A DNA stretch of 64,000 nt. Source: Shinella sp. CPCC 101442 (GTDB lineage Bacteria; Pseudomonadota; Alphaproteobacteria; Rhizobiales; Rhizobiaceae). The position numbers and the translations under genes were made by a program. The notes under the pieces are model-generated. The model was given only the letters and a program-made list of their open reading frames with translations, ran no database searches and was not told where the DNA came from. Positions 44,484-52,130 of this stretch are shown here, one piece after another. Location of the stretch: NCBI RefSeq assembly GCF_024704725.1, contig NZ_JALIQS010000006.1, positions 1 to 64,000 of the forward strand, written 5' to 3'. The number at the start of each line of letters is the position of its first letter. Position 1 is the stretch's first letter.

Positions 44484-45125
44484 ATGAACCGCTTTCCCGA
44501 TCGTCTTCTGAATGGCTATCGCAATTTCATGTCCGGCCGCTATGCCGAGCAATCCGCCCGCTACCGGGCGCTGGCCGAAACCGGCCAGAAACCGAAAACC
44601 CTCGTCATTGCCTGTTGTGACTCCCGCGCCGCGCCGGAGACGATCTTCGACAGCGGTCCGGGTGAGCTTTTCGTCGTGCGCAATGTCGCCAACCTCGTGC
44701 CTCCCTATGAGCCGGATGGCCAGTTCCACGCCACCTCGGCCGCACTCGAATTCGCGGTCCAGTCGCTGAAGGTCACGGATATCCTGGTGATGGGTCATGG
44801 CCGCTGCGGCGGCATCTCCGCCGCCCTCGACCTGGACGCCGAGCCGCTGTCGCCGGGCGATTTCATCGGCAAGTGGATGGGCATGCTGAAGCCCGTCGCA
44901 GAGCAGATCCAGGGCGCGGAAATCCTCACGCAGGCCGAACGCCAACGCGCGCTGGAGCGGGTCTCGATCCGCAACTCCATCGCCAACCTGCGGACATTCC
45001 CCTGCGTGCGCATTCTCGAAGAGAAGGGCCGCATCCAGCTGCACGGCTCCTGGTTCGACATCTCGACCGGTGAACTGTGGATCATGGACGCGGCCACGGG
45101 CGACTTCACACGTCCGAGCGCATAG
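44484..45125 (+). CDS. Beta-class carbonic anhydrase
   Basis: A 213-aa beta carbonic anhydrase interconverting CO2 and bicarbonate. Zinc ligands are Cys44 in CCDSR (with the Asp46-Arg48 dyad), His105 and Cys108 in GHGRCGG. VRNVANLVPPYEPDG (about 67-81) and the C-terminal LHGSWFDISTGEL (about 190-202) are conserved. Start MNRFPDRLLNGY is the usual family start; in-frame upstream codons are less likely. It lies 86 bp after pdxY and ends at a strong terminator. Confidence 0.95.
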   Translation: MNRFPDRLLNGYRNFMSGRYAEQSARYRALAETGQKPKTLVIACCDSRAAPETIFDSGPGELFVVRNVANLVPPYEPDGQFHATSAALEFAVQSLKVTDILVMGHGRCGGISAALDLDAEPLSPGDFIGKWMGMLKPVAEQIQGAEILTQAERQRALERVSIRNSIANLRTFPCVRILEEKGRIQLHGSWFDISTGELWIMDAATGDFTRPSA

Positions 45126-45151
45126 GCATTTCCAGCCCGATACGGATACAG

Positions 45152-45186
45152 AAAAGCCCGGCGTGGTTTCCCGCGCCGGGCTTTTT
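45152..45186. terminator. Terminator carbonic anhydrase / lytic transglycosylase
   Basis: A 12-bp stem AAAAGCCCGGCG / CGCCGGGCTTTT with a 10-nt loop, flanked by A on the left and T on the right, lies between two convergent stops. Confidence 0.85.
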
Positions 45187-45208
45187 CGAACTTCGGGATG
45201 TCGTGCGA

Positions 45209-46030
45209 TCAGTCGCCGTCGATTTCCGCGCCGATGATGGCGATCGCGCGCTGGTAGACGCTTGCCGCGTTCCAGCCCTGAAGGGCGCCGAAATTGCCCT
45301 GGCCCGGCTGGTAGCCGCCGCCAGCGCTCCAGCCGTGGCCGCGCAGGAAGTTGGCTGTGGAGGCGAGCGCGTCGGCCTTCGAGCCGACGAGGTCGATGCG
45401 GCCGTTGCCGTCGCCGTCGACGCCGTATTTCAGGACGTTGGCCGGCAGGAACTGCGTCTGGCCGATTTCGCCATGGGCCGCGCCACGGGCCGTCGTGCTC
45501 AGCGTGCCGTTCTGCACGAGCTGCAGGGCGGCGTAGAGCTGGTTGGTGAAGTAGTCCGAGCGACGGCAGTCATAGGCGAGCGTCGCAACGGCTGACAGCG
45601 TATGTTCCTTGCCGAGGAAGCCGCCGAAGCCGGTTTCCATGCCCCAGATGGCGAGCAGCGGGCCGGCCGGCACGCCGTAGCGGGCTTCGATACGCTCGAA
45701 GAGCGCGGCATTCTGCTTCTTCAGGCTCTTGCCGCGGTTGATGATGGCCTTGCCGCCGCGCTTCTGCATGAACTGGTCAAGCGAGAGCTTGAAGCTTTTC
45801 TGGCCGCGGTCGGCGCGGATCGTGGCTTTGGCATAGTTGACATTGGCGAAGGCCTTGTCGAGCGTCGAGCGGCTGATGCCGCGGCCGGCCGCCTCGTCCT
45901 TGAACGCCTCGGCCCAGGCCGAAAAACCGCTCGCATCGTTGCCGCACTTGGCGGCCTGTGCCGCTGCCGGTACCGCCGCCGTGGCGATCATTGCGGCCAG
46001 CACCTTGGCCACGCTCTTGATCATGCCCAT
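45209..46030 (-). CDS. Lytic murein transglycosylase (MltB/SLT_2 type)
   Basis: A 273-aa exported protein. Residues 1-28 are a signal peptide (MGMIKSVAKVLAAMIATAAVPAAAQA, cut in two parts; Ala-x-Ala site). The SLT_2 domain follows: FVNVNYA-type start, RYGVPAGPLLAIWGMETGFGG (about 119-139; the Glu is the expected catalytic acid), then GAAHGEIGQTQFLPANVLKYGVDGDGNGRIDL (in two parts, about 187-218). It cleaves peptidoglycan glycan strands in the periplasm. ATG 46030 has GGGG about 7 nt upstream; ATG 46024 is an alternative. Confidence 0.93.
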   Translation of the reverse strand: MGMIKSVAKVLAAMIATAAVPAAAQAAKCGNDASGFSAWAEAFKDEAAGRGISRSTLDKAFANVNYAKATIRADRGQKSFKLSLDQFMQKRGGKAIINRGKSLKKQNAALFERIEARYGVPAGPLLAIWGMETGFGGFLGKEHTLSAVATLAYDCRRSDYFTNQLYAALQLVQNGTLSTTARGAAHGEIGQTQFLPANVLKYGVDGDGNGRIDLVGSKADALASTANFLRGHGWSAGGGYQPGQGNFGALQGWNAASVYQRAIAIIGAEIDGD

Positions 46031-46138
46031 GAAAAACCCCGTGATCTCGTGAATTCCGCTGCGGGAGCATGGCATGCCCCCTGTTCCTGTCATAGCACCT
46101 TGCCGTGAACTTCAGGCCGCGAGGCCTGGGTCAAAGCG

Positions 46139-46177
46139 AAGTCCCGATTGTTCTCAAACGGAACAACCGGGACTTTT
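46139..46177 (-). terminator. Hairpin downstream of asd
   Basis: Arms of 15 bases (AAGTCCCGGTTGTTC / GAACAATCGGGACTT on the minus strand) pair fully with one G-U; the plus strand would have an A-C mismatch at the same point. The better pairing on the minus strand suggests it acts on the asd transcript, whose stop lies 64 bp before it. The U-tail on that strand is weak. Confidence 0.55.
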
Positions 46178-46240
46178 ATTTAAACTTGGTTAAAGGATCG
46201 TTGCCACATTTCACCGAAATGCGCGACCCCTCCCCAAAAA

Positions 46241-47275
46241 TCAGGCGGCCTGCTTCTTCGCCTTGATCAGGCCGCGCGCGACGAGCAGCTCGGCGATCTG
46301 GATGGCGTTGAGGGCGGCACCCTTGCGCAGGTTGTCGGAGACGACCCAGAGGTTGAGACCGTTTTCGACCGTCGCGTCCTCGCGGATGCGTGAAATGTAG
46401 GTGGCGTCTTCACCGGCCGATTCATACGGCGTGATGTAGCCGCCGTCCTCGTGCTTGTCGATGACCTGGCAACCCGGCGCCTCGCGCAGGATCTCGCGGG
46501 CTTCGTCCGCCGTGATTTCGTTTTCGAACTCGATGTTCACAGATTCGGAATGGCCGATGAAGACCGGAACGCGCACGGCCGTGCAGGTTACCTTGATCTT
46601 CGGGTCGAGCATCTTCTTGGTTTCGGCGAGAACCTTCCACTCTTCCTTCGTGTAGCCGTCTTCCATGAAGCTATCGATATGCGGAATGACGTTGAAGGCG
46701 ATGCGCTTGGTGAACTTCTTCGTTTCGACCGGGTCGGCCACGAAGACGGCACGGGTCTGCTGGAAGAGTTCGTCCATGCCTTCCTTGCCGGCACCGGAAA
46801 CCGACTGATAGGTCGAGACGACGACGCGCTTGATCTTGGCGCGATCATGCAGCGGCTTCAGTGCGACGACCAGCTGGGCGGTCGAGCAATTCGGGTTGGC
46901 GATGATGTTCTTGCGGGTGAACAGGCTGATGGCGTCCGGGTTCACTTCCGGAACGATCAAGGGAACGTCGGCGTCGTAGCGCCAGGCGGACGAGTTGTCG
47001 ATGACGACGCAGCCCTTGGCGCCGATCTTCGGCGACCACTTCTGCGAAACCGTGCCGCCGGCCGACATCAGGCAGATGTCGGTGTCCGAGAAGTCGTAGT
47101 TTTCGAGGTTCTGGACCTTCAGCGTCTTGTCGCCGAAGGACACTTCGGTGCCGAACGAGCGGCTGGAGGCCAGCGCCACGACTTCGTCGGCCGGGAAGCC
47201 CCGCTCGGAAAGGATGTTCAGCATCTCACGGCCGACATTGCCGGTCGCGCCGACGATTGCGATCTTGAAACCCAT
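46241..47275 (-). CDS. asd: Aspartate-semialdehyde dehydrogenase
   Basis: A 344-aa Asd, reducing aspartyl-4-phosphate to aspartate semialdehyde, the branch point to lysine, diaminopimelate, threonine and methionine. The NADP fold is IVGATGNVGREML (about 7-19); the catalytic Cys130 is in NPNCSTAQ. VSGAGKEGMDEL (about 162-173) and HSESVNIEFE (about 247-256) are family blocks. It is preceded by a 39-codon Thr/Lys-rich leader ORF and two hairpins, suggesting attenuation by pathway end products. Only a weak AGAGAGC precedes the ATG. Confidence 0.97.
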   Translation of the reverse strand: MGFKIAIVGATGNVGREMLNILSERGFPADEVVALASSRSFGTEVSFGDKTLKVQNLENYDFSDTDICLMSAGGTVSQKWSPKIGAKGCVVIDNSSAWRYDADVPLIVPEVNPDAISLFTRKNIIANPNCSTAQLVVALKPLHDRAKIKRVVVSTYQSVSGAGKEGMDELFQQTRAVFVADPVETKKFTKRIAFNVIPHIDSFMEDGYTKEEWKVLAETKKMLDPKIKVTCTAVRVPVFIGHSESVNIEFENEITADEAREILREAPGCQVIDKHEDGGYITPYESAGEDATYISRIREDATVENGLNLWVVSDNLRKGAALNAIQIAELLVARGLIKAKKQAA

Positions 47276-47387
47276 ATTTATGCTCTCTTTCTCTGTCTCT
47301 CCGCGGGGTCAGGAGGGGAAACCCGCCGGCCTTGACGCGGGTTTCGGTCCCCGGCCATACCGGGGAGAGAGCGGTGGGCCAGAGACG
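47276..47387 (-). promoter_or_regulatory. asd leader RNA with two hairpins
   Basis: Between the leader-ORF stop and asd the minus-strand RNA can form CCCCGG-5 nt-CCGGGG (47349-47365) and GAAACCCGC-10 nt-GCGGGTTTC (47318-47345). Neither has a U-run. GCTCTCT near 47366-47372 can also pair with AGAGAGC at 47282-47288, just before the asd ATG, which would hide the ribosome site. This fits a switch between alternative structures controlled by ribosome position on the leader ORF (inference). Confidence 0.5.
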
Positions 47388-47507
47388 TCAGACGGTTTTC
47401 GTCGTCGTTTTGGCCGTTGTTTTGGAAATCGATACGCAATAGCGAACCCGTCCGGCGTTGAAGGCCGGAGCGATCATGCTGGCGATGGTAAGACCAAAGC
47501 GGTTCAT
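47388..47507 (-). CDS. Thr/Lys-rich leader peptide upstream of asd
   Basis: A 39-codon ORF on the asd strand starts MNRFGLTIASMIAPAFN and ends SKTTAKTTTKTV. Six of its last eleven residues are Thr and three are Lys, with another Thr and Lys-type context just before. AGGGA lies 6-7 nt before its ATG. The stop is 112 nt before asd. The clustered codons for two end products of the pathway that Asd feeds match the logic of amino-acid attenuation leaders such as thrL of E. coli. Small size means coding cannot be proven from one sequence. Confidence 0.6.
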   Translation of the reverse strand: MNRFGLTIASMIAPAFNAGRVRYCVSISKTTAKTTTKTV

Positions 47508-47764
47508 GTCGGTTCCCTTGCGTGCGTGCTGAATACGCTCATCTTGCGAAGAGTCAAGCCTTGCAGGATGAATGCGGCGTTTCAGTGAGACCAGCAGCCT
47601 GTAACTTAAGTCGTAGGCCGAAAGTCATAAGCCCAAAGCAGCGCTGATGTCACAATCCATTTTCTGCCATCCTTCCATCAGGCGCACCCCGTCCGGTGTT
47701 TTTAGGGAGAAACTCCGGACCCCATGGGCTGCCCCGACACGCCGTTTTTGTGGAGGACAAACAA
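47508..47764. other. asd / MHS-transporter divergent promoter region
   Basis: No further gene is seen here. The imperfect dyad GTCCGG-GTTT / AAAC-CCGGAC spans 47691-47720, 45 bp before the transporter start, and would fold in its mRNA leader. GTGGAGGACAA just before ATG 47765 is the transporter RBS. Promoters for asd (leftward) and the transporter (rightward) must lie here; no clear -35/-10 pair was recognised. Confidence 0.4.
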
Positions 47765-49654
47765 ATGGCAAATGTTTCGACGGCAGGCACCGCCAAGGCG
47801 GCGCCGATGACCGGCGAGCAGAAGAAGGTGATCTTCGCCTCTTCGCTCGGCACAGTTTTCGAATGGTATGATTTCTATCTTTACGGTTCGCTGGCGATCT
47901 ATATCGGCGCCACCTTCTTCAGCCAGTATCCGGAAACGACGCGCAACATCTTTGCGCTGCTGGCCTTTGCTGCCGGCTTTCTCGTTCGTCCGTTCGGCGC
48001 GCTGGTGTTCGGCCGTCTCGGCGACCTTGTCGGCCGCAAATACACCTTCCTCGTCACCATCCTCATCATGGGCGTCTCGACCTTCGTCGTGGGTCTTCTG
48101 CCCGGTGCCGCCACCATCGGTATCGCCGCTCCGATCATCCTGATCCTGCTGCGCATGCTGCAGGGCCTGGCACTCGGTGGTGAATATGGTGGTGCTGCCA
48201 CCTACGTGGCCGAGCACGCTCCGGAGGGCCGGCGCGGCTACTTCACCTCGTGGATCCAGACGACGGCGACGCTCGGCCTGTTCCTGTCGCTGGTGGTCAT
48301 CCTCGCGGTACAGTTCATTGTCGGCAAGGAAGCCTTCGCCGAATGGGGCTGGCGCATTCCGTTCCTGCTGTCGGTCGTTCTCCTCGGCGTCTCCGTCTGG
48401 ATCCGCCTGAAGATGAACGAATCGCCGGCCTTTGCGAAAATGAAGGAAGAGGGCAAGGGCTCCAAGGCACCGCTGACGGAAGCCTTCGGTCAGTGGCGCA
48501 ACGCCAAGATCGCGCTGCTCGCGCTGTTCGGCGCCGTCGTCGGCCAGGCCGTCGTCTGGTATTCCGGCCAGTTCTACGCGCTGTTCTTCCTGACGGGCGT
48601 GCTGAAGGTCGATGGCCAGTCGGCGAACATCATGGTCGCCTGCTCGCTGCTGCTCGGCACCGGCTTCTTCGTCTTCTTCGGCTGGCTGTCCGACAAGATC
48701 GGCCGCAAGCCGATCATCATGGCCGGCCTGCTGCTTGCCATGCTGACCTATTTCCCGCTGTTCAAGGCGCTGACCTGGGCCGGCAACCCGGCGCTGGCAC
48801 AGGCGCAGGCAACGGTTCGCGCAACGGTGACCGCCGCTCCCGATGACTGCAAGTTCCAGTTCAACCCGACGGGCACGGCGAAGTTCACCACCTCGTGCGA
48901 TATCGCGACCTCGTTCCTGACCCGCAACTCGGTGCCCTATGACGTCGTCACCACGGCGGCTGCCGGCACGGCGGCGACGGTCAAGATCGGCGAACAGACG
49001 ATCAACAGCTACGATGCGATCGCGGCCGGCGACCAGGCCAAGGCGCTTGACGGTGCCTTCCAGAAGCAGACCAACATCGCGCTTCACGATGCCGGCTACC
49101 CGCTGGTCCGTGGTGCGGCCAAGGTTCTGGACAGCAAGCTCGATGCTTTCGTCACAGCCAACCCCGAACTCGCGCTCGATGCGGCTGCCATCCGCGCCGG
49201 CGAAAAGACGACCATGCCGGCAGCCGACCTCGTCAAGGCGAAGCTGCTGACGGCCGAAGAAGCCAATGGCGTCACCGACATGACGGTCTACTCGATTGCC
49301 GGTGGCGGTGCCTTCACCATGGTCGCGGATCCCGCAAACGTGAACTGGGTCACGATCATTGCCGTCCTGACGGTCCTCGTGATCTACGTCACCATGGTCT
49401 ACGGCCCGATCGCCGCCCTGCTGGTCGAACTCTTCCCGACCCGCATCCGCTACACCGGCATGTCGCTGCCCTACCATATCGGCAACGGCTGGTTCGGCGG
49501 TCTGCTGCCGGCAACGGCCTTCGCGATGAGCGCTGCCCAGGGCGATATCTACTTCGGCCTCTGGTATCCGATCATCTTCGCAGGCCTCACGCTGGTCATC
49601 GGTCTTCTCTTCCTGCCGGAAACGAAGGACCGCGATATCCACGCCATGGATTGA
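47765..49654 (+). CDS. MHS-family MFS transporter with large periplasmic insert
   Basis: A 629-aa MFS permease of the metabolite:H+ symporter family. VFEWYDFYLYGSLA (TM1, about 32-45), GRLGDLVGRKYT (motif A, about 88-99), and GLALGGEYGGAATYVAEHAP (about 133-152) are MHS signatures; relatives carry 2-oxoglutarate, proline/betaine, citrate or shikimate. The predicted 12 helices are split between TM9 (about 315-337) and TM10 (about 525-555) by about 185 residues, including DDCKFQF and TTSCDIA, whose two Cys could form a disulfide. By topology this insert is periplasmic. Substrate unknown. AGGA lies 7-9 nt before ATG. Confidence 0.88.
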   Translation: MANVSTAGTAKAAPMTGEQKKVIFASSLGTVFEWYDFYLYGSLAIYIGATFFSQYPETTRNIFALLAFAAGFLVRPFGALVFGRLGDLVGRKYTFLVTILIMGVSTFVVGLLPGAATIGIAAPIILILLRMLQGLALGGEYGGAATYVAEHAPEGRRGYFTSWIQTTATLGLFLSLVVILAVQFIVGKEAFAEWGWRIPFLLSVVLLGVSVWIRLKMNESPAFAKMKEEGKGSKAPLTEAFGQWRNAKIALLALFGAVVGQAVVWYSGQFYALFFLTGVLKVDGQSANIMVACSLLLGTGFFVFFGWLSDKIGRKPIIMAGLLLAMLTYFPLFKALTWAGNPALAQAQATVRATVTAAPDDCKFQFNPTGTAKFTTSCDIATSFLTRNSVPYDVVTTAAAGTAATVKIGEQTINSYDAIAAGDQAKALDGAFQKQTNIALHDAGYPLVRGAAKVLDSKLDAFVTANPELALDAAAIRAGEKTTMPAADLVKAKLLTAEEANGVTDMTVYSIAGGGAFTMVADPANVNWVTIIAVLTVLVIYVTMVYGPIAALLVELFPTRIRYTGMSLPYHIGNGWFGGLLPATAFAMSAAQGDIYFGLWYPIIFAGLTLVIGLLFLPETKDRDIHAMD

Positions 49655-49680
49655 TCTCCCCCTTCCGATGAGTTCATGGC

Positions 49681-49717
49681 AACCCGGCTCGTGGCAACAC
49701 GGGCCGGGTTTTTGTTT
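49681..49717 (+). terminator. Terminator after MHS transporter
   Basis: AACCCGGCTCGTG pairs over 13 bp with CACGGGCCGGGTT (one G-U) around a GCAA tetraloop, followed by TTTGTTT. It begins 26 bp after the transporter stop and touches the end of the convergent PAP2 gene. Confidence 0.85.
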
Positions 49718-50409
49718 CACGGATCTGGCAGAAGCGATTTGGGCAGCGGCCAGCCGCGTGGATCGAAGCGGAACAGCCATTCCTTGCGGGCGAAGAGGAA
49801 AGCGGTGGCGACGGCCGTCCAGAGGCCGAGCAGCAGACCTGCGGCGACATCGCTGGGGTAGTGCGCCCCGACGATGACACGCGAGACGCCGATCGTCAGG
49901 GCGCCGAGCAGGAAGAGCGGCCTGAGCTGCGGCGCCAGCATCGAGAAGGCGCCGAAGAAAGCGCCGACGGCCGCCGAATGGCCGGATGGAAAGCTGGAAT
50001 AGAGGTCGTCATAGGCAAAGGGCGTCAGGCTGTAGGCGCCGTGTTCGGCAAAGAGTTCCGGCCGCGCCCGCCCCACGACCAGCTTGACGAGGTGGACAAG
50101 CGCACTCGTCGCGCCAATCGTCAGAAGGAAATAGAGCGGCAGCCGCCACGCGGTTCTCGTCCTGCCCGCCAGCGTCTCGTTCCTGCCGATCCGATGCGCG
50201 ACATAGGCGAGCATGACGAGCACACCGGAGCCATAGATCATCCAGCTGAAGGTGCCGAAATCGGTGATGCGCTCGTTGAAGGCGACGACGGCGCCGGGAA
50301 GACCCTGTGCGCGCTGCGATATCGCCGGATCGAACGGGATGAGCCCCACGACGAGCACGACGGTGGCGGCGAAGATCCAGAGCGAGGAGGTCGCGAGCGA
50401 TCGGTTCAT
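49717..50409 (-). CDS. PAP2-family membrane phosphatase
   Basis: A 230-aa membrane protein with about six hydrophobic segments and the three phosphatidic-acid-phosphatase motifs: KLVVGRARPE (about 116-125), SFPSGHSA (about 146-153) and SRVIVGAHYPSD (about 184-195) with the catalytic His residues. Enzymes of this clan dephosphorylate lipid phosphates such as undecaprenyl pyrophosphate or lipid A (LpxE-like); the substrate here is open. AAGGGA about 8 nt before ATG 50409 fixes the start. Confidence 0.9.
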   Translation of the reverse strand: MNRSLATSSLWIFAATVVLVVGLIPFDPAISQRAQGLPGAVVAFNERITDFGTFSWMIYGSGVLVMLAYVAHRIGRNETLAGRTRTAWRLPLYFLLTIGATSALVHLVKLVVGRARPELFAEHGAYSLTPFAYDDLYSSFPSGHSAAVGAFFGAFSMLAPQLRPLFLLGALTIGVSRVIVGAHYPSDVAAGLLLGLWTAVATAFLFARKEWLFRFDPRGWPLPKSLLPDP

Positions 50410-50475
50410 GGCTTTCCCTTGCAGATGGCGTCGCTTCCATGTGTTGGCGCAAGGCGGCTTTTCAAGGGAAGCAAA

Positions 50476-50516
50476 CGAAAAAGGCTCCCGGAGCGGGTGC
50501 GCCGGGAGCCTTTTCA
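50476..50516. terminator. Bidirectional terminator after leuB
   Basis: AAGGCTCCCGG / CCGGGAGCCTT, 11-bp stem with a 10-nt loop, has TTTTT on the minus strand and TTTT on the plus strand. It ends leuB transcription 20 bp after its stop. Confidence 0.85.
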
Positions 50517-50531
50517 GCATTGCGTCTCGGC

Positions 50532-51641
50532 TCAGGCCGAGAGCTTCTTGAACGCTGCGAGGATCGCGTCGCCCATTTCCGTCGTGCCGACCTGGCGGCT
50601 GCCTTCGGACATGATGTCGCCGGTGCGAACGCCGCTGTCGAGCACGTTGGCGATCGCCTTTTCCAGATTGTCGGCTTCCGCGACCATGTTGAACGAGTAG
50701 CGCAGGCACATGGCGAAGGAGGCGATCATGGCGATCGGGTTGGCAATGCCCTTGCCGGCAATGTCCGGTGCCGAGCCGTGCACGGGCTCGTAGAGCGCCT
50801 TGCGCTGGCCCTTGGCATCAGGCGCGCCGAGCGAGGCGGACGGCAGCATGCCGAGCGAGCCGGTCAGCATGGCGGCAACGTCGGAGAGCATGTCGCCGAA
50901 CAGGTTGTCGGTGACGATGACGTCGAACTGTTTGGGCGCACGAACGAGCTGCATGCCGCCGGCGTCAGCCAGCATGTGCTCGAGCTGCACGTCGGAATAG
51001 GCGCGCTTGTGCGTTTCCGTCACGACCTGGTTCCACAGAACGCCGGACTTCATGACGTTGCGCTTTTCCATCGAGCATACGCGGTTGCCGCGCGTGCGGG
51101 CCAGTTCGAAGGCGACGCCGGCGATGCGCTCGATCTCGTAGGTGTCGTAGACCTGTGTGTCGATGCCGCGCTTCTGGCCGTTGCCGAGGTCGATGATCTC
51201 CTTCGGCTCGCCGAAATAGACGCCGCCGGTCAGTTCGCGCACGATGAGGATGTCGAGGCCCTCGACCAGCTCGGGCTTCAGCGAGGAGGCGTTGGCGAGT
51301 GCCGGGTAGCAGATCGCCGGGCGCAGGTTCGCAAACAGCTTCAGGTCCTTGCGCAGGCGCAGCAGGCCGGCTTCCGGGCGTACTTCATAGGGAACGGCAT
51401 CCCATTTCGGGCCGCCGACGGCGCCGAACAGCACGGCATCCGCCGCAAGCGCCTTCTCCATGTCGCCTTCCGAGATCGCCGCGCCATGGGCGTCGTAGGC
51501 CGAGCCGCCGACGAGGCCTTCGTCGGTCGTGAAGCCGGCGCCGAGTTCGGCGTTCATATAGGCGATGATCTTGCGGACTTCCGCCATGGCTTCCGGGCCG
51601 ATGCCGTCGCCGGGCAGGAGGAGGAGGTTACGCGCTGTCAT
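50532..51641 (-). CDS. leuB: 3-isopropylmalate dehydrogenase
   Basis: A 369-aa LeuB, oxidatively decarboxylating 3-isopropylmalate in leucine synthesis. [13 protein letters not shown] (about 6-18), VREXTGGXYFG as [13 protein letters not shown] (about 134-146), and the metal-binding [17 protein letters not shown] (about 239-255) are intact; the NAD-type loop [14 protein letters not shown] (about 287-300) is present. AAGGA lies 7-8 nt upstream. It is the last of leuD-ridA-leuB, 108 bp after ridA, so it may have an extra promoter. Confidence 0.97.
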
Positions 51642-51749
51642 GGGATTTTCCTTGATGTCACGGATTGGTCGCGCGCTTCTTAGCGCAACTTCCGTTCAAG
51701 GAAAATCGTCACAACGAAAGATTTTTGCGCGAAGGCCTTGGCCTTTCGG

Positions 51750-52130
51750 CTAGCTGCGGCGCAGCGCCGTGACTTCGATTTCGATCAGCATTTCCGGCCG
51801 GATGAGGTCGCAGACCACCATGGTGGCGGCAGGGCGGATCGTGCCGAAGGTTTCGCCGAGGATCGGGAAGACGCGGTCGGCGAAGGCGGCTTCGGTCACG
51901 TAATAGTGGCAGCGCACGACGTCCTCGAAGGAAAACCCGGCATCGGACAACACCTTGCCGATAGTGGCGAGGCAATTGCGCGTCTGGTCTTCGACGCCAT
52001 CGGGCATGGTCATGCTGGCGTAGTCGTAGCCGGTCGTCCCGGAAACGAAGCACCAGTCGCCCTGAACGACGGCGCGCGAATAGCCCGCCGTCGCTTCAAA
52101 AGGAGAGCCGGACGAGATCAGCCGGCGCAT
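51750..52130 (-). CDS. RidA/YjgF family protein
   Basis: A 126-aa RidA-family protein. These trimers hydrolyse reactive imine/enamine intermediates made by PLP enzymes, or have other small-molecule roles. The start RRLISSGSPFEATAGYSRAV, WCFVSGTTGYD (about 26-36) and IRPAATMVVCDLIRPEMLIEIEVTAL (in two parts, about 97-122) match the family; the latter carries the Arg and Glu of the active site. It lies 4 bp after leuD, between two leucine genes, consistent with protecting branched-chain metabolism from imine damage. Confidence 0.92.
   Translation of the reverse strand: MRRLISSGSPFEATAGYSRAVVQGDWCFVSGTTGYDYASMTMPDGVEDQTRNCLATIGKVLSDAGFSFEDVVRCHYYVTEAAFADRVFPILGETFGTIRPAATMVVCDLIRPEMLIEIEVTALRRS

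Follow-up and report, generated by a model that had tools for sequence, protein, structure and literature searches.

The asd gene of Shinella is preceded by a conserved 39-codon leader ORF that ends in a run of Thr and Lys codons, and the RNA between this ORF and asd contains two pairings that covary across families. We consider it probable, at roughly 0.55, that this Thr/Lys-responsive leader controls the translation of asd (translational attenuation). The leader is real, conserved and partly anticipated in print; new here are its order-wide distribution, the covarying fold with an anti-Shine-Dalgarno (anti-SD) loop and the lack of a terminator. Coordinates refer to the window, i.e. the whole 64-kb stretch of DNA that was analysed.

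Leader ORF and asd locus

The first-pass annotation of this DNA had reported a 39-codon ORF with a good ribosome-binding site (RBS) 112 nt before asd, and the coordinates, the RBS AAGGGAA and the identity of asd were all confirmed (Table 1). The C-terminal end of the leader ORF, on the minus strand of the Shinella window, is SKTTAKTTTKTV, and the 112 nt extend from its stop codon to the asd ATG (47275). The asd product scored 474.5 bits with NCBIfam model TIGR01296 (cut-off 324.2) and 532.7 bits with NF011456 (cut-off 223), and asd was the single match in the whole Shinella genome. Among the 823 ORFs of 8–90 aa on both strands of the window, the leader ORF alone had six or more Thr among its 14 C-terminal residues; two others reached five. 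A search of the Shinella genome for the Thr-run pattern gave one match at another place.

An mltB-like transglycosylase gene lies next to asd on the minus strand, a diverging MFS transporter gene lies on the plus strand, and leuB is located beyond. Just past the end of leuB, a match to the Rfam family ctRNA_p42d was detected (50471–50515, minus strand; 34.5 bits, gathering cut-off 50, E = 7.5e-5), which could be a terminator-like hairpin of leuB or a chance match.

The block CTTGACTC...GCGTATT upstream of the leader was nearly invariant among 21 Shinella genomes, and its −35-like CTTGACTC was present in S. meliloti too. This promoter-like block was not called by the consensus scanner. As the block is kept and stops about 22 nt short of the leader start codon, a single transcript probably covers leader and asd; its 5'-UTR would, judging from the sequence, measure roughly 250 nt.

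Table 1. Features of the leader–asd region of Shinella (coordinates of the 64-kb window).
Feature	Position	Strand	Description
Promoter-like TTGACT-N16-TATTCA	47530..47557	-	Ends 22 nt before leader ATG; candidate promoter of leader and asd
Leader RBS AAGGGAA	47513..47519	-	From sequence; A-G-rich block preserved in genus alignment
Leader ORF	47388..47507	-	ATG, 39 sense codons, ends MNRFGLTIASMIAPAFNAGRVRYCVSISKTTAKTTTKTV, TGA
Thr/Lys codon run KTTAKTTTKTV	47391..47423	-	6 Thr, 3 Lys, every Lys encoded by AAA
Region 2, GTCTCTGGCC	47377..47386	-	5' strand of hairpin, starts 1 nt past leader stop; 2:3' covariation
Region 3, GCTCTCTCCCC	47362..47372	-	CU-rich apical loop of 2:3', complementary to asd SD region; 3:4 covariation
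Region 3', GGCCGGGGAC	47347..47356	-	3' strand of hairpin, G-rich partner of region 2; covariation
Variable hairpin GAAACCCG...CGGGTTTC	47318..47345	-	Between 3' and 4; from sequence and MFE fold
Region 4, GGAGAGA	47296..47302	-	Purine strand able to pair with region 3
asd Shine-Dalgarno (SD) GAAAGAGAGC	47282..47291	-	Contains AGAGAGC, with which region 3 (GCTCTCT) could pair instead
asd, aspartate-semialdehyde dehydrogenase	46241..47275	-	344 aa; NCBIfam TIGR01296 and NF011456 above cut-off

Distribution of the leader upstream of asd

Loci were scored for an ORF ending upstream of asd with at least four (or at least five) Thr in its last 14 residues. The named set comprised the best 80 of 569 confirmed relatives, and the loci drawn from the order and the class were the better-scoring among the matches listed, so the values are counts and not rates for all genomes. 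At least four Thr were present at 80/80 of the nearest named loci, in 21/21 genomes of the own genus and at 54/68 loci of the order, and at least five at 70/80, 21/21 and 46/68, respectively (pooled 137/169). A broken ORF or a lost Thr/Lys run in close relatives, which the first-pass annotation had named as evidence against a leader, was not found: the run was intact in all 21 own-genus genomes.

Short ORFs are frequent in GC-rich DNA, and the leader might accordingly be a chance ORF or a repeat artefact. On the reverse strand, at least five Thr were found at 0/80 named, 0/21 genus and 0/68 order loci (pooled 0/169), and in dinucleotide shuffles of the three sets in 3/1600, 1/420 and 2/1360 cases (total 6/3380), against the 137/169 observed. 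With at least four Thr, the reverse strand gave 0/80 named, 0/21 genus, 0/68 order and 1/25 class loci, and the shuffles 24/1600, 8/420, 13/1360 and 13/500. A chance ORF is refuted by this conservation, and its probability is negligible. Conservation strongly supports the idea of a Thr/Lys leader for asd, and translation has been reported for the likely ortholog in S. meliloti (see below).

In a second set from the order (n = 40, a later draw from the same list), 25 loci had at least four Thr, one of them judged spurious, and 20 had at least five; the reverse strand reached a maximum of three. In total, 79 of the 109 order loci carried the leader, in 20 of the 29 families sampled (52 families were encountered). 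Families in which no leader was found at the loci sampled were f7 (0/3), f8 (0/1), f18 (0/3), f21 (0/2), f31 (0/1), f32 (0/1), f34 (0/1), f35 (0/5) and f50 (0/3). L174, a member of the own family with a genome reduced to 1.5 Mb, lacked the leader as well. A locus on a short contig (L116) stands outside the Thr count.

Of the 25 class-drawn loci, which include one from the order (L175, from the same genome as L159), two had at least four Thr and two at least five. Four further class loci, with an unparsed asd start, were left out (L180, L183, L194 and L197). The two positives, L184 and L186, belong to other orders of the class and have Thr/Lys-rich ORFs upstream of asd. The record NZ_CP072868.1, labelled as plasmid p3 of Rhizobium sp. 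NLR16a, carries an asd whose leader region was matched at 58% coverage; a lytic transglycosylase gene follows this asd, the same arrangement as in the Shinella window.

A hairpin-only RNA model, R2, detected one site per genome in 31/61 genomes. These comprised 21/21 own-genus genomes, where each site adjoined asd by its coordinates, and 10/16 genomes from other genera of the family. No site was detected in 24 genomes of other families, under the stricter filters that were used above 40 genomes, and the R2 model is therefore specific to Rhizobiaceae.

Within the same Shinella genome, no comparable Thr/Lys run was found before hom, before a second gene with a homoserine dehydrogenase domain or before lysC. 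An ORF ending 180 nt upstream of thrC had four scattered Thr in its last 14 residues, no Lys and no run; it is probably a chance occurrence.

Peptide composition and codon usage

Over 95 distinct sequences, the tails consisted of 43% Thr and 18% Lys, compared with 5.4% and 6.7% in the asd genes of loci L106–L134; the Thr share is partly due to selection, since at least four Thr were required, while Lys was optional and aided the choice between ORFs. Each of these tails contained at least one Lys, and all of the 24 leaders collected later contained Lys. We retain the reading of a Thr plus Lys leader in which Thr is dominant.

The Thr codons varied synonymously between ACC, ACG, ACA and ACT, mostly ACG and ACC in about equal shares, and the run is therefore not simply a frozen string. 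AAA made up 329 of the 392 Lys codons in the leaders, against 99 of 3036 in the adjacent asd genes, where AAG accounts for about 97% (related sequences each counted). The AAA share was 38/56 in the later leader set and 103/136 in the 62 leaders that are not of the Rhizobiaceae type. The use of the rare AAA could sharpen the sensing of Lys, or the bias could serve the RNA structure.

In 34 of 36 divergent sequences, the last Thr occupied one of the three codons that precede the stop. Across genera, the tail alone was recognisable and the N-terminus drifted. Within the genus, the variable sites were spread over the three codon positions as 12, 12 and 13, and 18 of 24 variable codons altered the residue, so that no coding selection is visible outside the tail there. 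Protein similarity underestimates the conservation of the leader, because what is kept is limited to the run of codons and the pairing of the RNA.

These patterns bear on the idea that the product is a small protein that has its own function, of the kind of S. meliloti SEP5, and that its position before asd is incidental. The S. meliloti protein was indeed detected as an SPA fusion in the soluble fraction, according to the available text of PMC10117765. The absence of recognisable cross-genus conservation outside the Thr/Lys tail, together with the fact that most variable codons within the genus alter the residue, makes this idea very improbable.

RNA elements between leader and asd

Four elements, designated 2, 3, 3' and 4, recur between the leader stop and the asd ATG. 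The 271-nt stretch folded better than its shuffles (z = −2.45). In 57 Rhizobiaceae-type sequences, RNAalifold predicted a local CCCCGG hairpin and the pairing GCTCTCT:AGAGAGC. The pairs were almost invariant in this alignment, with no double changes; 99.1% of cells paired, versus 37–58% with slid partners, and for region 2 (2:3') 98.5% were paired. In sequences of this type, region 3 is able to pair with GGAGAGA or, alternatively, with the AGAGAGC of the SD. Owing to this near-invariance within the Rhizobiaceae type, cross-family tests were used. The hairpin between 3' and 4 changes its sequence freely across genera, yet it is recognisable by eye in many.

Covariation was assessed with an alignment-free test in which the duplex energy of a strand with its own partner was compared with the energies obtained with partners from other sequences. 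The main set contained 36 sequences less than 72% alike (limit 0.72), drawn from 158 leaders and excluding L161 as well as leaders with fewer than 65 nt to the ATG. A held-out set retained 17 of 24 sequences after the similarity limits and the removal of the spurious L237; it comes from the same order and shares many families with the main set. With fixed test windows (n = 36), the mean energy for 2:3' was −22.2, compared with −18.3 when partners were mismatched (z = −7.5, p < 5e-5; reversed control z = 0.36). For 3:4, with test windows that stop 8 nt short of the ATG, it was −23.4, compared with −21.5 (z = −3.55, p = 3e-4; reversed control 0.84). With a more stringent choice of 15 sequences, the p values were <5e-5 (2:3') and 0.007 (3:4). 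The held-out set (n = 17) gave 0.0015 and 0.002, respectively, with controls of 0.08 and 0.50.

Among the 3:4 pairs that had changed in individual sequences were CCCTCACC with GGTGAGGG, GCTTCCC with GGGAAGC, and GTCCTCC with GGAGGAC. Loop 3 differed between families yet remained CU-rich and complementary to region 4. When the test windows for 3:4 were anchored on the best helix, z was −3.83, but one reversed control reached z = −2.19 (p = 0.015); part of the anchored 3:4 signal is therefore due to composition or to the anchoring. The first duplex test, on whole test windows, gave an overall p of 0.006 but was weak for single sequences, of which 3/36 fell within the best tenth. Across the 36 sequences, the best helix ended 7–40 nt upstream of the asd ATG. 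The overlap with the SD sequence therefore differs, and many of them may occlude the SD only indirectly. No significant cross-family covariation was found for 1:2 (p = 0.25), for 3:3' (p = 0.10) or between the SD and region 2 (p = 0.10).

The 2:3' and 3:4 covariation was measured on non-overlapping bases, region 3 being kept out of the 2:3' test by design. As the loop of the 2:3' hairpin pairs outside the hairpin, the topology of the combined helices is that of an H-type pseudoknot. Of simultaneous and alternating formation of 2:3' and 3:4, the former, a pseudoknot, is the choice that we would favour as a model. Even with no ribosome modelled, nested folding made pairing between the test windows of 3 and 4 likely (0.83, highest base) and 2:3' unlikely (0.16, mean of the bases), two values on different scales; nested folding programs are blind to pseudoknots.

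Terminator searches and folding simulations

The first-pass annotation had suggested attenuation as known for thrABC, and this part of its proposal was not supported. In a scan of 47200–47800, the asd strand showed no stem with a T-rich tail; the one site reported was on the opposite strand (mean of 0.7 in shuffles). By eye, no terminator was seen in the stop-to-ATG stretches of the relatives looked at. At 47273–47507 there was no match to any Rfam family, neither to RF00506 (Thr_leader) nor to RF01732 (asd motif). Within 45000–52000, the sole Thr_leader match was a weak one at the end of the transglycosylase gene (45147–45255, minus strand; 26.2 bits, cut-off 55, E = 0.12). The conserved RNA points instead to control at the level of asd translation.

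A transcriptional output of the same sensor, in which translation of the leader would set termination before asd through Rho or an unusual terminator, has several points in its favour. Classical Thr leaders such as that of E. coli thrABC act by termination, and in Shinella a C-rich untranslated stretch follows the leader stop. The S. meliloti trp leader is likewise a transcription attenuator, as stated in the available text of PMC10117765. We nevertheless consider this output unlikely, given that no terminator-like stem was found for the asd strand or seen in the relatives inspected, and the position of the covarying 3:4 pairing near the SD and not ahead of a U-run. Translation is the likelier output because no terminator-like site was found on the asd strand and region 4 lies near the SD.

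In equilibrium folding with a modelled ribosome, the SD accessibility of the Shinella element stayed at 0.38–0.39 over the simulated ribosome positions, and the mean of 41 sequences went from 0.47 to 0.46–0.54. The SD opened in the simulation with a ribosome near the stop in L115 (0.39 to 0.80), L122 (0.31 to 0.75), L132 (0.13 to 0.48) and L135 (0.48 to 0.80). The simulations therefore do not show a general ribosome-driven switch, which would suit a reading with the reversed direction or another signal: the hairpin and loop might bind a protein or a metabolite, and the ORF might merely keep the region translated. The authors who described the LEU element of actinobacteria favoured a protein site there, Leu codon mutations being without effect (PMC1262725, available text). 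Several observations speak against such a binding site upstream of asd and make it quite unlikely: the Thr/Lys run is in frame, drifts synonymously, uses a rare Lys codon and has its last Thr at most three codons from the stop in 34/36 sequences, and loop 3 varies among families while staying CU-rich and complementary to region 4.

Proposed mechanism and physiological meaning

In the translational mechanism that we propose, the leader ORF would be transcribed together with asd and translated before it. The hairpin 2:3' would form right after the leader stop and present the CU-rich loop 3 as a built-in anti-SD sequence, which would pair with the purine strand 4 beside the asd SD, either in a pseudoknot or by forming a long helix instead. 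With ample charged tRNA, the ribosome would complete the leader and depart, the RNA would fold and asd translation would be low. When Thr-tRNA or Lys-tRNA is scarce, ribosomes would halt on the terminal codons with a footprint extending into region 2. The halted ribosome would open the hairpin, loop 3 would release region 4, and asd would be translated.

We infer ribosome stalling, the direction of the response, a pseudoknot in preference to exclusive helices, and the translational output. A ribosome on the terminal codons would enter strand 2, because the last Thr is near the stop and at most a few bases separate the stop from the hairpin. As the simulation shows no general switch, the direction of the response is chosen on physiological grounds, since Asd should rise when Thr or Lys is low. 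A more ambitious version appears possible though rather doubtful as a whole. It would be an order-wide switch in which the leader ribosome operates a pseudoknot whose anti-SD loop clamps the asd start in cis, and which senses both Thr and Lys, the latter through the rare AAA codon. An additional role of the leader RNA in trans, by analogy with the trp attenuator RNA, might be possible; this is suggested by the resemblance of its loop to those of trans-acting sRNAs of alpha-rhizobia.

Asd is the branch-point enzyme for Lys and diaminopimelate (cell wall), Thr and Met. The leader probably lets the cell adjust Asd to its supply of Thr and Lys. In E. coli, the Thr leader is located on thrABC. Rhizobia would regulate the aspartate pathway at another step than E. 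coli, as their leader lies on asd, and the sequences preceding hom, thrC and lysC in the same Shinella genome showed nothing comparable.

Comparison with known systems

The first-pass annotation knew of no described leader before a rhizobial asd, which was not quite right: one had been proposed for S. meliloti, SEP5, in PMC10117765. According to the available text, Hadjeras et al. (2023; PMC10117765) showed translation of the SEP5 sORF by Ribo-seq and by Western blotting of an SPA-tagged fusion under another promoter. The sORF has six Thr and three Lys codons near its 3' end and lies in the 5'-UTR of a gene named aspartate dehydrogenase there; a role as leader peptide was proposed, and conservation was given as Sinorhizobium only (same text). 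In S. meliloti CP090106, the tail ...RKTTAKTTTKTV is followed by asd, the counterpart of the leader is annotated as a CDS, and the same RNA parts are present as in the Shinella leader. Because this ORF fits the description in the paper (six Thr, three Lys, before asd), it is very probably SEP5 and the ortholog of the Shinella leader. The two share the codon counts near the 3' end and the position directly upstream of asd. The SEP5 paper, in its available text, gives a Sinorhizobium-only distribution with no RNA structure or mechanism, whereas here the leader is order-wide and has a covarying fold. No other alphaproteobacterial asd leader was found in the literature among the matches listed, nor was one present in the available text of PMC2864571, PMC1273637 and PMC2965389. 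What had been a remark on one S. meliloti sORF can now be put as a proposed RNA switch that is open to testing and whose covarying helices are named.

The leader resembles thrL and RF00506 in having a leader peptide with Thr codons upstream of an aspartate-family gene. In the E. coli thrABC leader thrL, the regulatory Thr codons also precede an aspartate-family gene, and Ile is the second residue. The leader described here differs in serving asd instead of thrABC, in having Lys instead of Ile, in the lack of a detectable U-tract terminator and in the lack of an Rfam match. The Rfam 'asd' motif RF01732 is a structured RNA of the same name that is listed for Lactobacillales, and it did not match the Shinella element.

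Translational attenuators of the ermC type also consist of a leader ORF followed by a structure able to mask the downstream SD, which a stalled ribosome would open. They answer to antibiotics, whereas the asd leader would, in our model, answer to tRNA charging. The alpha-rhizobial sRNAs AbcR1/2 and NfeR1 carry unpaired CU-rich anti-SD stem-loop motifs that pair with ribosome-binding regions (PMC7143759, available text). Those loops act in trans; the CU-rich loop of asd lies in cis, behind a leader ORF.

The closest published architecture that we met is the LEU element of actinobacterial leuA, which, in the available text of Seliverstov 2005 (PMC1262725), combines a Leu leader peptide with a candidate pseudoknot whose pairing reaches the SD. 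The amino-acid leader and the candidate pseudoknot are common to both. In the LEU element it is the run of Leu codons that pairs with the SD, whereas in the asd leader a loop located after the stop codon pairs near the SD, and the phylum, the gene and the amino acid differ.
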